DNA of 56,758 nucleotides from an uncultured Acholeplasmatales bacterium. Lineage in GTDB: Bacteria > Bacillota_I > Bacilli_A > Acholeplasmatales > Anaeroplasmataceae. Each line of letters opens with the position of its first letter. Positions within the stretch are counted from its first letter, which is position 1. Below the pieces are notes generated by a model. It searched no databases. It worked only from the letters and a program-made list of their open reading frames with translations, and was not told the origin of the DNA. Position numbers and translations under genes: made by a program. This document shows positions 11,472-16,442 of the stretch, piece by piece. Location: assembly GCA_944324805.1 (NCBI GenBank), contig CALUXS010000010.1, positions 1 through 56,758 on the forward strand. Reading direction: 5' to 3'.

Positions 11472-11759
11472 ATGAGAAAATATGAAGTTATGTATATTCT
11501 TCGTTCTAATCTAGAACAAGAAGCAATTAAAAAAGAGGTAGAAAATATTAAAAAGATTTTCACTGACAATGCTTCTTCAGTTTTAGAATGTAAAGAATGG
11601 GGTCTTAGAGAATTAGCATACGAAATCGAACATATGCGTAAAGGTTATTATGTTTGGATGTTAGTAGAAGCTACACCTAAGGCAGTTGAAGAATTCAATC
11701 GTATTGTAGGTTATAGTGAAACTGTAATCCGTCACATTGTTGTAAAAGACGGAGAATAA
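11472..11759 (+). CDS. rpsF: 30S ribosomal protein S6
   Basis: S6 binds the central domain of 16S rRNA as a heterodimer with S18, whose gene lies two genes downstream. The 95-residue protein starts MRKYEVMYILR and includes the conserved WGLRELAYEIEHMRKGYYVWM segment split around residues 43-63, plus RIVGYSETVIRHIVV. AAGGAGG is placed 9 bases before the ATG. It is first in rpsF-ssb-rpsR, a near-universal bacterial arrangement, and has a structured leader that may mediate autoregulation. Confidence 0.97.
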   Translation: MRKYEVMYILRSNLEQEAIKKEVENIKKIFTDNASSVLECKEWGLRELAYEIEHMRKGYYVWMLVEATPKAVEEFNRIVGYSETVIRHIVVKDGE

Positions 11760-11772
11760 GAGGTGTATAAGA

Positions 11773-12279
11773 ATGAATAAGGTAGTCTTAACTGGTAGAA
11801 TTACTAGAGATCCAGAAATTCGTTATACCCAAACCGGAATAGGGACGGTATCTTTTTCCCTAGCTGTTGATCGTCAAATTAAAGACGCTTCAGGTAATAG
11901 ACAAGCTGATTTCATCAATTGTGTTGCATGGCGTAATCAAGCAGAGTTTATTTCTCGATACATTAAAAAGGGATATATGCTTTGTGTAGAGGGTCGTATT
12001 ACAACAAGAAGCTACCAAGGTCAAGATAATGCTATGCATTATGTTACAGAGGTAGTTGTTGATCAAGTTGAAAATTTGACACCACGTCAAAATGATATGA
12101 ACGGCTATGTAGATAATAGACAAGCAGGAATGCAAACTAATTATCAACAACCATCATATCAACAACCAAGCTATCAGCAGCCAACTTACCAACAACCTAC
12201 AAATCAACAATCAAATTATGATAATGGTCCAATGTCTATTAACAATTTGAGTGTTGATGATGATGATTTACCATTTTAG
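11773..12279 (+). CDS. ssb: Single-stranded DNA-binding protein
   Basis: SSB coats single-stranded DNA in replication, repair and recombination, and recruits partners through its C-terminal tip. The 168-residue protein has the OB fold (about 1-105; [32 protein letters not shown]). A Gln/Pro/Tyr-rich linker of YQQP units follows (about 122-145), then the acidic tip DDDDLPF that binds replication proteins. It lies 13 bases after rpsF and 14 before rpsR. The linker repeats are usual for SSB and vary between species. Confidence 0.97.
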
Positions 12280-12293
12280 AAAGGAGAATAATT

Positions 12294-12542
12294 ATGCAAA
12301 ATAATCGTAAGAATGATCGTGACTTCCCACGTCGTGGTCGTAAAAAAGAATGCTATTTTACTAAGAATCATATCGAGCACATTGATTTCAAGGATGTTGA
12401 CTTATTAAAACAATTTATCACTGAAAGAGGAAAGATTTTACCTCGTCGTGTTAAAGGTACAAGTGCTAGATATCAACGTAAGTTAGCTATCGCAATCAAA
12501 AGAGCACGTCATATGGCATTATTACCATTCGTAAAAGAATAG
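12294..12542 (+). CDS. rpsR: 30S ribosomal protein S18
   Basis: S18 pairs with S6 on the platform of the small subunit. The 82-residue protein has the family core: [19 protein letters not shown] (about 30-48), [24 protein letters not shown] split around residues 51-74, and the terminal LLPF. Its N-terminus is basic and slightly extended. AAAGGAG precedes the ATG. It is last in the operon, followed by a strong terminator at 12550. Confidence 0.97.
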
Positions 12543-12669: not shown

Positions 12670-15105
12670 ATGGTAAACGGAATTCTATGCATGGTAAGTT
12701 TTTTTCTTAGCGGAATCTTTTGGTACCTTTTTGGTATTGCACCAATGGAAGGACACGCTAAATTAATATATTTCATATTAGCATGTGGCTTTATTTTACT
12801 TGGTATTATTTTTATCTTTTTATATTTTTATTTAAAGGAAAGAAAAAATGTTAAAGACTTACAAGAGCAAATAAAGGTATGGGGAAATACAACATATCAT
12901 ATTAATGCATCAGGTGATGTAGCTTTTGAAGAAATGCCTATTGGTATTGTAGTTTATGATGATAATAAACTTATTAAATGGTTTAATAATTATATGCAAG
13001 ATATTGTCCAAGCTAAACTAAATGATAGTCCTTTAACAACCATTAGCGGTGACATATTAAATAGAATTGAAAGTAATCAAGAAAAATTTTTAGTTAAAAT
13101 TGGTGAAAATGTATACGATTGTGTTCATTACAAGGAAAATAAATTATTATACTTTTTCGATGTTACAAGTCGTGAGGAGTTAAAACAAAAATATCAAAAT
13201 AGAACTCTTGCAATGGGAATAGTTGTGGTTGATAACCTTGAAGAATCATTAAAACGTTATGATTTACAGGGTAAAACAACTATTAGTGGACAAATATTAG
13301 GTAAGATTTCTAATTATTTTGAAAGCTTTAATTGTTTTTTTCAAACAGTAGATGATGATAGAATGATTTTCATTTGCGATAGATATGATTTGAATAGAAT
13401 GATTGATGATAAATTTAGTATTTTAAATGGAATAAGAGAGATTTCTAAGAGCGCACACTTAAAGACAACAATTAGTATAGGAGCTGCTTGTTTTGATTCA
13501 AAGGGTTCAGAATTTGTTGGAAAGGTTAATGGTGCCGTTGAATTGGCAGAAAAGCGTGGTGGAGATCAGGCTGTAGTTAATATTCAAAATGAGAGTATTC
13601 GTTATATTGGCGGAGAATTGAATGCCTTAGAAAAGAATACTTTGGTTACAGCTCGTATGCAAACAACAGCATTACGTGATATTTCATTAAATGCTAGCAA
13701 TGTAATAATTATGGCTCATAAGGCTGCTGATTGTGACGCTTTAGGTGCAATGATTGGAGCGTTACGTCTGGTTCAAAGTTTTGGAGTAAAGGACGTAAAA
13801 ATCGTGCTTGAAAGAAAGTATTTAGATGTAACTGCTAAAAGGGCTTATGATGCTTTAATTGAAATGGATCCTGATTTTGAAGATGAATTAATTACAGAAG
13901 AAAAAGCCTTGTTTGAAATGGGTGAGGATACATTATTATTAATTTGTGATACTCAAGCCCCAAAATTAGTCATGTTTGATGAGGTATTAAAAAGAGCTAG
14001 CCACTTAGCAATTATTGATCATCATCGTGTTGGTGATGTTGATTTTGAACATGTTGAAATGTCTTATGTTGAAACATATTCTTCATCAACAGTTGAACTA
14101 ATTTCAGAAATGCTTATTTTCAGTTCACAAACTAAGATAAATGCCGTGGAAGCGACAATTATGCTTTCTGGTATTATTGTCGATACAAATAACTTTACAT
14201 ATCGTTCTGGTTCGAGAACCTTTGAGGCAGCCTCAACATTAAAGGAATTAGGTGCTGATATGGTTAAGGTAAGAAAGCTATTGCGTGATAGCTATGATGC
14301 TGAAAAAGAAATGGCTGAAGCTTTACTTAATGCTAAAATTTACTTTAATCGTTTTGCAATAGTAACTATTGATAAGGAAAATATGTCTGATAGAACATTA
14401 TTAGCTCGTATTTCTGAGCGTTTATTGACAGTAGAAGGAATAGATGCAGCTTTCACTATTGCTAATATGACTGATGGTACAGTTTCTGTTTCTAGTAGAA
14501 GTTTAGAGGGTGTAAATGTTCAAATCATAATGGAAGAGCTTGGTGGTGGTGGTCATCTTCAACAGGCTGCTTGCCAACTTAAAGATAAGAATATTGAAGA
14601 GGTTAAAGAACTAATTTTAAATATTTTAAAACGTGATTATGGATATGAAGGAGAAGAAAAAATGAAAGTAATTTTAACTGTTGATGTCAAAGGAAAAGGT
14701 AAAAAGGATGATATTATTGAAGTAAATAATGGTTATGGCAATTATTTAATCAATAATAATATGGGACTTTTAGCTAATGAAGCTAATTTGAAGAAATTAG
14801 CTGAAAATCAAAAGCAAGCTGCCCTAGATGAGACAAATCGTATAAATTTACTTAATAAATTGAAATCTGAAATTGATGGGAAATCCGTTACAATTTATTT
14901 AAAGGTTGGTGCTGACGGAAAAGCCTTCGGTCATGTTACTTCTAAGTTAATCTGTGATGAATTTGAAGCTCAAAATGGTATTCGTCTTGATAAGAAAAAA
15001 CTAGAATTACCTAGCGATATTAATGCTATTGGTATTTATACGGCAAATATTGTTTTAGATAAAGGTATTGTTGCAAGCTTCCAAGTAAATGTAATAGGTA
15101 ATTAA
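12670..15105 (+). CDS. GdpP-type c-di-AMP phosphodiesterase fused to ribosomal protein L9
   Basis: One frame encodes two proteins that are usually separate neighbours. Residues 1-650 match GdpP: two N-terminal TM helices (about 1-55), a degenerate PAS region, a degenerate GGDEF domain (about 170-300), then DHH (AHKAADCDALG about 348-360, CDTQ, IIDHHR) and DHHA1 (GGGGHLQQAACQ), with the metal-binding Asp and His residues kept; the family hydrolyses c-di-AMP to pApA. Residues 665-811 are a complete bL9 starting MKVILTVDVKGKGKK with NNGYGNYLI. An in-frame ATG at 14662 sits 7 bases after GAAGGAG, so free L9 could also be made. The main start 12670 is chosen over GTG 12661 because GGGGTGAT precedes it. 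Confidence 0.92.
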   Translation: MVNGILCMVSFFLSGIFWYLFGIAPMEGHAKLIYFILACGFILLGIIFIFLYFYLKERKNVKDLQEQIKVWGNTTYHINASGDVAFEEMPIGIVVYDDNKLIKWFNNYMQDIVQAKLNDSPLTTISGDILNRIESNQEKFLVKIGENVYDCVHYKENKLLYFFDVTSREELKQKYQNRTLAMGIVVVDNLEESLKRYDLQGKTTISGQILGKISNYFESFNCFFQTVDDDRMIFICDRYDLNRMIDDKFSILNGIREISKSAHLKTTISIGAACFDSKGSEFVGKVNGAVELAEKRGGDQAVVNIQNESIRYIGGELNALEKNTLVTARMQTTALRDISLNASNVIIMAHKAADCDALGAMIGALRLVQSFGVKDVKIVLERKYLDVTAKRAYDALIEMDPDFEDELITEEKALFEMGEDTLLLICDTQAPKLVMFDEVLKRASHLAIIDHHRVGDVDFEHVEMSYVETYSSSTVELISEMLIFSSQTKINAVEATIMLSGIIVDTNNFTYRSGSRTFEAASTLKELGADMVKVRKLLRDSYDAEKEMAEALLNAKIYFNRFAIVTIDKENMSDRTLLARISERLLTVEGIDAAFTIANMTDGTVSVSSRSLEGVNVQIIMEELGGGGHLQQAACQLKDKNIEEVKELILNILKRDYGYEGEEKMKVILTVDVKGKGKKDDIIEVNNGYGNYLINNNMGLLANEANLKKLAENQKQAALDETNRINLLNKLKSEIDGKSVTIYLKVGADGKAFGHVTSKLICDEFEAQNGIRLDKKKLELPSDINAIGIYTANIVLDKGIVASFQVNVIGN
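14648..14664 (+). promoter_or_regulatory. rplI: Internal ribosome site and start codon for free L9
   Basis: AAGGAG (14648-14653) precedes the in-frame ATG at 14662-14664, exactly where L9 normally begins (MKVIL). Initiation here would yield a 147-residue standalone bL9 ending at 15105. The bases also encode the GdpP-L9 linker (GYEGEEK). Confidence 0.6.
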
Positions 15106-15107
15106 TT

Positions 15108-16442
15108 ATGCAACAGCGTTTAGTTATTCCATCTAATGTAGATGCAGAAATAGCTTTACTAGGCTGTATTATAATTGATGAATCTGCCTTTGTGCATGTT
15201 GTTGATATGGTGGAACTAGATGATTTTTATGATCCACATAATAAGGCTATTTTTAAGGCTATGTCAACAATTTATGCTAATGGGCAAAATATTGATATAA
15301 CAACCTTGTTGAGCTATTTAGAAAAGGAAAATCTTTTAGAACAAGTAGGTGGCTATGAATATCTAGCCAACTTATCAAATATTGGTTATTCAACGTCTAA
15401 TATTGATACATATATTGAGTTAATCACTGATGCTTCTTTGAGAAGAAAAACAATAAATTTACTTAATAACTTATCACAAGAAGGATATAAGTCAGAAAAA
15501 AGTACTTTTGATTATGTTGAAGAAATTGAAAAAGCTGTTTTTGAACTTTCACGCAGAAGAAGAGTAGATTCTTTTAGAACAATTGCTGATGTGTCAAAGC
15601 AGGTATTATTCAATACGGAAGCTAATTCAAATCAAAAGGAAGAAATAATTGGACTAAAAACTGGCTTCTCTAAGGTTGATAGAATTACTTTAGGCTTTCA
15701 ACCAGGACAGTTATTGATATTAGCGGCTCGTCCTGCTATGGGAAAGTCAGCAATGGCAATCAATTTAGCATGTAATATTGCTAGTAAAAATAAAAATGGT
15801 CATGCTAATGTAGCTATGTTTTCACTAGAAATGACTGCAGAGCAATTAGTTGAAAGAATGATTGCAAGTGACTCAAAGATTCAGCTTTCTGATATTAAAA
15901 CAGGTAAAATTGGATCATCTGAGTGGATAAGATTTAATACAAGCTGCTCTAGATTAAGTAAATTAGGTTTATTTTTTGATGATTCAACCGATTTAACTGT
16001 AGCTAAAATTAGAGCAAAATGTAGAAAACTTGCAGTTGATCAAGGATTAGATTTTGTTGTAATAGATTATTTACAGCTTATAAATAGTGAAAATGATTCA
16101 AAGTCTGCTCAAGAGGCAGTCGCAAAAATATCACGTGAATTAAAGCTAATGGCAATGGAATTGAAAATCCCTGTAATGGCATTATCGCAGCTTTCTCGTG
16201 CCGTTGAAAAGCGTGAAGATAGACATCCAATAATGGCAGATTTGCGTGATTCTGGTAGTATCGAGCAAGATGCTGATATAGTTATGTTTTTATATCGTGA
16301 TGATTATTATAATAAATCTTCTACTCGTAAGGGTGAAGCTGATTTAATTATTGCAAAGAACCGTAGTGGTTCGACACATGAAGGGTTACCAATGCTTTTT
16401 AATGGTGCCTGCGCATGTTTTGATGAAAAATTGGAAGAATAG
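15108..16442 (+). CDS. dnaB: Replicative DNA helicase DnaB
   Basis: This is the hexameric 5'-3' helicase that unwinds DNA at the replication fork. The 444-residue protein has the N-terminal primase-interacting domain (about 5-105; VDAEIALLGCIIIDESAF) and the RecA-like domain with Walker A ARPAMGKSA (about 205-213), the Walker B region VVIDYLQLI, and SQLSRAVEKREDRHP plus DLRDSGSIEQDAD near the C-terminus. Length is typical. It starts two bases after gdpP-rplI, with no strong ribosome site of its own, so it probably depends on coupling. Ends 15 bases before prfA. Confidence 0.97.
   Translation: MQQRLVIPSNVDAEIALLGCIIIDESAFVHVVDMVELDDFYDPHNKAIFKAMSTIYANGQNIDITTLLSYLEKENLLEQVGGYEYLANLSNIGYSTSNIDTYIELITDASLRRKTINLLNNLSQEGYKSEKSTFDYVEEIEKAVFELSRRRRVDSFRTIADVSKQVLFNTEANSNQKEEIIGLKTGFSKVDRITLGFQPGQLLILAARPAMGKSAMAINLACNIASKNKNGHANVAMFSLEMTAEQLVERMIASDSKIQLSDIKTGKIGSSEWIRFNTSCSRLSKLGLFFDDSTDLTVAKIRAKCRKLAVDQGLDFVVIDYLQLINSENDSKSAQEAVAKISRELKLMAMELKIPVMALSQLSRAVEKREDRHPIMADLRDSGSIEQDADIVMFLYRDDYYNKSSTRKGEADLIIAKNRSGSTHEGLPMLFNGACACFDEKLEE

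Follow-up and report, generated by a model that had tools for sequence, protein, structure and literature searches.

The genes for the c-di-AMP phosphodiesterase GdpP and for ribosomal protein L9 (rplI) are widely paired in the Bacillota, and we found no explanation for this pairing in the literature searched. In the window, the whole stretch of 56,758 nucleotides analyzed here (contig CALUXS010000010.1 of an uncultured Acholeplasmatales bacterium), the two share a single reading frame. L9 is needed at about one copy per ribosome and GdpP is presumably a low-copy protein. The locus raises the question of how free L9 could be made from such a gene and whether the fused protein is of use in itself. 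We assign a probability of about 0.8 to the reading that an old in-frame gdpP-rplI fusion is read from two starts, giving a membrane-bound GdpP-L9 and free L9, and that the fused form itself is under selection.

Structure of the Fused Gene

The frame is continuous on the forward strand and reaches position 15105 without an internal stop, whether it is opened at GTG 12661, the mechanical start of the ORF, or at ATG 12670, from which it encodes 811 amino acids. The duplex with the anti-Shine–Dalgarno (SD) sequence amounts to −10.4 kcal/mol at the ATG versus −0.9 kcal/mol at the GTG, and ATG 12670 is the likely upstream start of gdpP-rplI. As this is the better start, Met1 of L9 is codon 665, the number given in a preliminary description of the locus that had been made from the DNA letters alone.

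Two hydrophobic stretches at 12670–12846, read off the translation by eye, are the probable transmembrane helices of GdpP. They are followed on the same strand by a PAS domain at 12904–13164 (PAS_GdpP, Pfam PF21370, 63 bits), a degenerate GGDEF domain at 13225–13593 (GGDEF_GdpP, PF24898, 61 bits), the DHH domain with the c-di-AMP phosphodiesterase active site at 13699–14175 (PF01368), the DHHA1 domain with its GGGH motif at 14389–14631 (PF02272) and the L9 part of 147 amino acids at 14662–15105 (Ribosomal_L9_N and Ribosomal_L9_C). Each of these domains scores above its cut-off, and the open frame with six Pfam domains in this order bears out the in-frame fusion that had been proposed. The L9 part is complete, with 96 bits against a cut-off of 58.6 for TIGR00158 and matches to both Pfam L9 domains. 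It has its own start codon, ATG 14662, with an internal SD sequence, AAGGAG, 8 bases upstream at 14648–14653 (duplex −9.0 kcal/mol); this ATG is residue 1 of L9, and the preliminary description had correctly placed the site exactly at the N terminus of the ribosomal protein. The product as a whole matches the family model NF011110/PRK14538 with 744.2 bits (cut-off 707), residues 35–812 covering positions 53–833 of the 838 in the model. The preliminary description had also suggested looking for a separate rplI elsewhere in the genome, and we found no second L9 in the assembly (96% complete, 22 contigs).

The fused gene lies downstream of S6 (rpsF), SSB and S18 (rpsR) at 11472–12542, S6 identified by NCBIfam and the other two recognized from their translations, and upstream of the replicative helicase gene dnaB at 15108–16442 (TIGR00665, 481 bits), all on the forward strand. 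The dnaB start follows the L9 stop by 2 bases (window positions 15099–15110) and has a weak ribosome site of its own (−3.8 kcal/mol), and for these reasons its translation may be coupled to that of L9. Outside the window, the same genome contains two adjacent stand-alone genes (G000:C7:290-1922), about 325–330 codons long, with matches to the DHH section of the model for the fusion.

Distribution and Origin of the Fusion

L9 was matched in 262 genomes from three orders, and in every one of them it lies within a fused frame or the frame hits a contig end: 140 of 140 in the order of the window, 83 of 83 in that of G024 and 39 of 39 in that holding G235 and G165. The preliminary description had suggested a search for this domain order; the fusion is an annotated family, NF011110/PRK14538, present in three or more orders. 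Frames of more than 700 codons occur in 253 of the genomes, and in 9 more the frame is open to the contig end, which rules out a sequencing error or local frameshift as the source of the fusion and agrees with the expectation that no stop or frameshift parts the two halves. The short frames seen in G343, G392, G404, G406, G416, G435, G454, G458 and G486 are only apparent, as all of them run to contig ends, judged by the length of the contig or calculated from the coordinates. In G246 (genus g105, 97% complete) the matches to L9, GdpP and DnaB are all absent, more likely through an assembly gap than through loss of the locus. The genomes of the window's order include a genus of 0.3–0.9 Mb genomes, presumably the phytoplasmas. 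One partial relative, the short locus L002 from an uncultured Acholeplasmatales bacterium, has 65% identity in L9.

In other families of the same class, the L9 gene is separate, gdpP mostly overlapping it or lying a few bases away, and the ribosome site of rplI is within or close to the 3′ end of gdpP. At one locus, L143 (G213:C4:36300-39300), gdpP and L9 share a frame and are parted by a single TAA and one further codon, an arrangement that could be either an immediate precursor of the fusion or the product of a later split. A 34-row GdpP tree divides fused from unfused genes by one branch with a support of 89, which is not decisive, and an 84-row tree places G213 on a long branch among the fused genes. 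A single origin of the fusion would be compatible with both trees, though not proven by them.

Where neighboring genes overlap or nearly touch, a lost stop or a small indel is enough to fuse them, and G213 is one TAA codon short of it. The fusion could thus be a neutral accident that leaves GdpP and L9 effectively separate and the read-through GdpP-L9 without function. Against this stands the lack of any stop or frameshift across the 262 genomes. Moreover, a rough model that takes the synonymous rate and treats all base changes as equal predicts about 49 stop gains among 25 independent sister pairs in the eight codons preceding L9 if stops were harmless, and none was seen. L9 itself could explain part of the constraint on the frame, but not that in the linker, and we consider a functionless read-through product quite unlikely.

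Conservation of the Internal Start

We studied the junction in 117 fusions from genomes with a single L9, the start in G353 being placed two codons upstream by eye. Position 1 of L9 is a start codon in every one of them, ATG in 110 and GTG in 7, with no other codon found; several of the genomes with GTG are closely related, and the independent changes to GTG are thus fewer than 7. Valine in this column is always encoded by GTG, a codon that accounts for only 3–16% of all valine codons in the six of these genes that are in the alignment, and the other methionine columns of the fusion show ordinary substitutions to leucine, isoleucine or valine by any codon. In 116 of the 117, the internal SD pairs at −5 kcal/mol or below (median −10.3, weakest −4.4 kcal/mol), compared with a mean of about −2.1 kcal/mol across all codons of the same genes in a 71-locus set. 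Taken by itself, the window genome gives the site no statistical distinction, ATG 14662 ranking third among 36 in-frame start-like codons by SD strength; the comparison across loci goes far beyond chance.

The sequence between the two parts gives an indication of what is being conserved. The last four residues of the linker form 85 different peptides among the 117 loci and the codon phase of the SD differs between families, and yet the SD persists, which points to the signal in the RNA, rather than the peptide, as the conserved element. This also bears on whether a protease, instead of internal initiation, supplies free L9 by cutting the fusion. Cleavage would likewise yield free L9, and the junction is short and hydrophilic; given that SD and start codon are conserved and the linker peptide is not, we regard proteolytic release as highly improbable.

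A second alternative is that only the fusion is made, L9 entering the ribosome while still joined to membrane-bound GdpP as its C-terminal domain and the internal SD and ATG being a relic or a by-product of the linker. The composition of the linker gives this some footing: when the sequences were shuffled synonymously, the shuffles averaged −8.3 kcal/mol and the internal SD had a median rank of 0.30, a signal that is weak overall and stronger in family f8. The weakness of this test is explained by the Gly/Glu-rich linkers, which readily encode SDs. Composition does not account for the start codon, kept throughout with GTG as the sole alternative, nor for an SD that outlasts changes of peptide and phase, and a low-copy membrane protein would fit poorly with the demand for L9. 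Production of the fusion alone is, in our assessment, very unlikely, also in view of the genomes described below, in which the signals are lost just where a free L9 exists.

Two further features of the frame were examined. The in-frame ATG 14260 has an SD-like site of about equal strength (−9.1 kcal/mol), and methionine is found there in 50 of 112 relatives; the site probably arose by chance. Promoter-like sites that could serve L9 from within the gene are no commoner than in shuffled sequences.

Genomes with an Additional Free L9

Five genomes from two unrelated genera carry a second, free-standing L9 gene 15–70 bases behind the fusion: G072 and G354 (loci L003 and L004) of genus g2, which belongs to the window's family, and G494, G495 and G496 (L103, L104 and L105) of genus g105 in family f20. 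The internal SD is gone in all five (−1.5, −1.5, −2.0, −2.0 and +0.4 kcal/mol), and the three fused copies of g105 have also lost the internal start codon, reading AAG, AAG and ACT in its place. The free copies have SDs of their own (−5.4 to −10.3 kcal/mol), and loss of the start was seen in none of the 117 single-L9 fusions. The loss of the SD wherever a separate L9 is present indicates that free L9 is most likely produced from the internal start, with the limit that this natural experiment consists of two independent evolutionary events only, both in the direction that dual production predicts. The comparison thereby gives strong support to dual production, which the preliminary description had put forward as a possibility: single-L9 genomes keep SD and start, and the SD is lost beside a free copy.

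The same genomes show what becomes of the fused domain. The frame stays open through L9 in all five, and dN/dS of the fused L9 and of the free copy was 0.12 and 0.14 for G072 versus G354, 0.32 and 0.16 for G494 versus G495, and 0.57 and 0.36 for G494 versus G496, respectively. The fused L9 is under purifying selection in these genomes, relaxed in g105, and its maintenance beside a free copy again goes against a neutral accident. The open frame and the purifying selection despite the free copy suggest that the fused L9 has a role of its own. The conserved Gly24-Tyr25 of the GYAN stretch, which we take to contact 23S rRNA, has been lost from the fused copy in all five genomes, independently in the two genera, and both residues are kept in the free copies. 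The fused L9 of g2 and g105 is therefore probably no longer a ribosomal protein, and yet it is retained; as the domain persists after losing residues believed to contact rRNA, it may be kept for something other than binding ribosomes.

Activity of GdpP and a Possible Link to the Ribosome

The enzymatic part of the fusion appears intact. The catalytic residues H, D, D, D, DHH and D together with GGGH are invariant in 112 of 112 fusions, the window included, and the catalytic part matches the solved c-di-AMP phosphodiesterases 9n0l and 5xsi. A diadenylate cyclase gene was present in all 34 genomes tested, small ones and the window genome among them, which rules out that c-di-AMP synthesis was lost in the small phytoplasma-like genomes and GdpP retained as a mere carrier of L9. 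The GdpP of the fusion is, by these signs, likely to be active on c-di-AMP.

With dual production in place, the fused L9 could in addition tether ribosomes to GdpP at the membrane and so couple c-di-AMP breakdown to translation, a function of the kind that the preliminary description had proposed. Fused and free L9 would be identical in sequence in the single-L9 genomes, GdpP has a membrane anchor along with its intact active site, and the gdpP-rplI neighborhood is widespread (PMC4568413, PMC6398277). In g2 and g105, the loss of G24 and Y25 from the fused domain and their retention in the free copies imply that something other than ribosome binding is being preserved, and in Streptococcus pneumoniae, in which gdpP and rplI are separate genes with a short overlap, deletion of rplI left resistance, growth and morphology unchanged (PMC10576035). 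Such tethering is possible but doubtful.

An Account of the Fused Gene

The sequences compared show directly the fusion and its distribution, an internal start that is conserved except beside a free L9, and purifying selection. Two starts on one old fusion would bring them together as follows. Initiation at ATG 12670 would give the membrane-anchored GdpP-L9; initiation at the internal SD and ATG (14648 and 14662), the retained start of the ancestral rplI, would give free L9 for the ribosome; and selection for the fused protein would hold the frame open. A separate L9 gene, where one is gained, would relieve the fusion of its ribosomal duty, with the L9 part kept as an altered accessory domain of GdpP. 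Both proteins are presumably present in cells, and the fused L9 domain may have a regulatory or structural role in GdpP. We offer only tentatively the more specific proposal that the L9 arm serves in ribosome or RNA sensing or in tethering, such that c-di-AMP breakdown follows the state of the ribosome at the membrane, and that in the two genera with a free L9 it has become a dedicated regulatory module. A link between c-di-AMP and the ribosome is the attractive idea here, and a structural role within GdpP the modest one.

Across three orders, selection appears to hold the two partners together as one protein and also to keep a route to L9 alone, and the fused protein therefore probably brings a benefit of its own. 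In the five genomes that gained a free L9, the two duties are divided between two genes, and the features that the fused domain retains or abandons become visible; a connection of c-di-AMP turnover with L9 can thus be put to a direct test. Annotation lists one product for a gene from which there are probably two.

Comparison with Known Systems

The gene order gdpP-rplI(-dnaB) is shared with the separate-gene operon of the Bacillota, in which rplI overlaps or closely follows gdpP (PMC6398277, PMC10576035); there a stop codon or a change of frame parts the two genes, and in the window the frame is continuous. Such an operon has been described in Bacillus thuringiensis (PMC4568413), and in Streptococcus gallolyticus the ribosome site of rplI lies inside the last 69 bp of gdpP (PMC6398277). 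Our literature search returned the separate-gene operon only and no GdpP-L9 fusion, which is weak evidence as it covered open-licence papers. One study treats L9 as lost in only a few Mollicutes and states that fusions are marked in its supplementary table (PMC4014445), and the main text of the Acholeplasma laidlawii proteome paper makes no mention of the two products (PMC3139596).

The PAS, degenerate GGDEF, DHH and DHHA1 domains are common to the window protein and GdpP of the YybT type, from which it differs by the C-terminal L9 extension. It is a full member, with the same domain order, of NF011110/PRK14538, named "putative bifunctional signaling protein/50S ribosomal protein L9". That name covers the fusion only; the model does not include a start for L9 inside the frame, nor the facts that this start is conserved and that it is lost beside a free L9. 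The fusion was thus already known as a named family, and what is new is the comparative evidence on the internal start. Some bacterial genes are known to contain a second start in frame, from which a C-terminal isoform is made. The gdpP-rplI gene would resemble them in having one frame, two initiation sites and a C-terminal product that is also made alone. Unlike in those genes, the short product would be a whole ribosomal protein and the internal site the retained start of a gene, not one newly gained.
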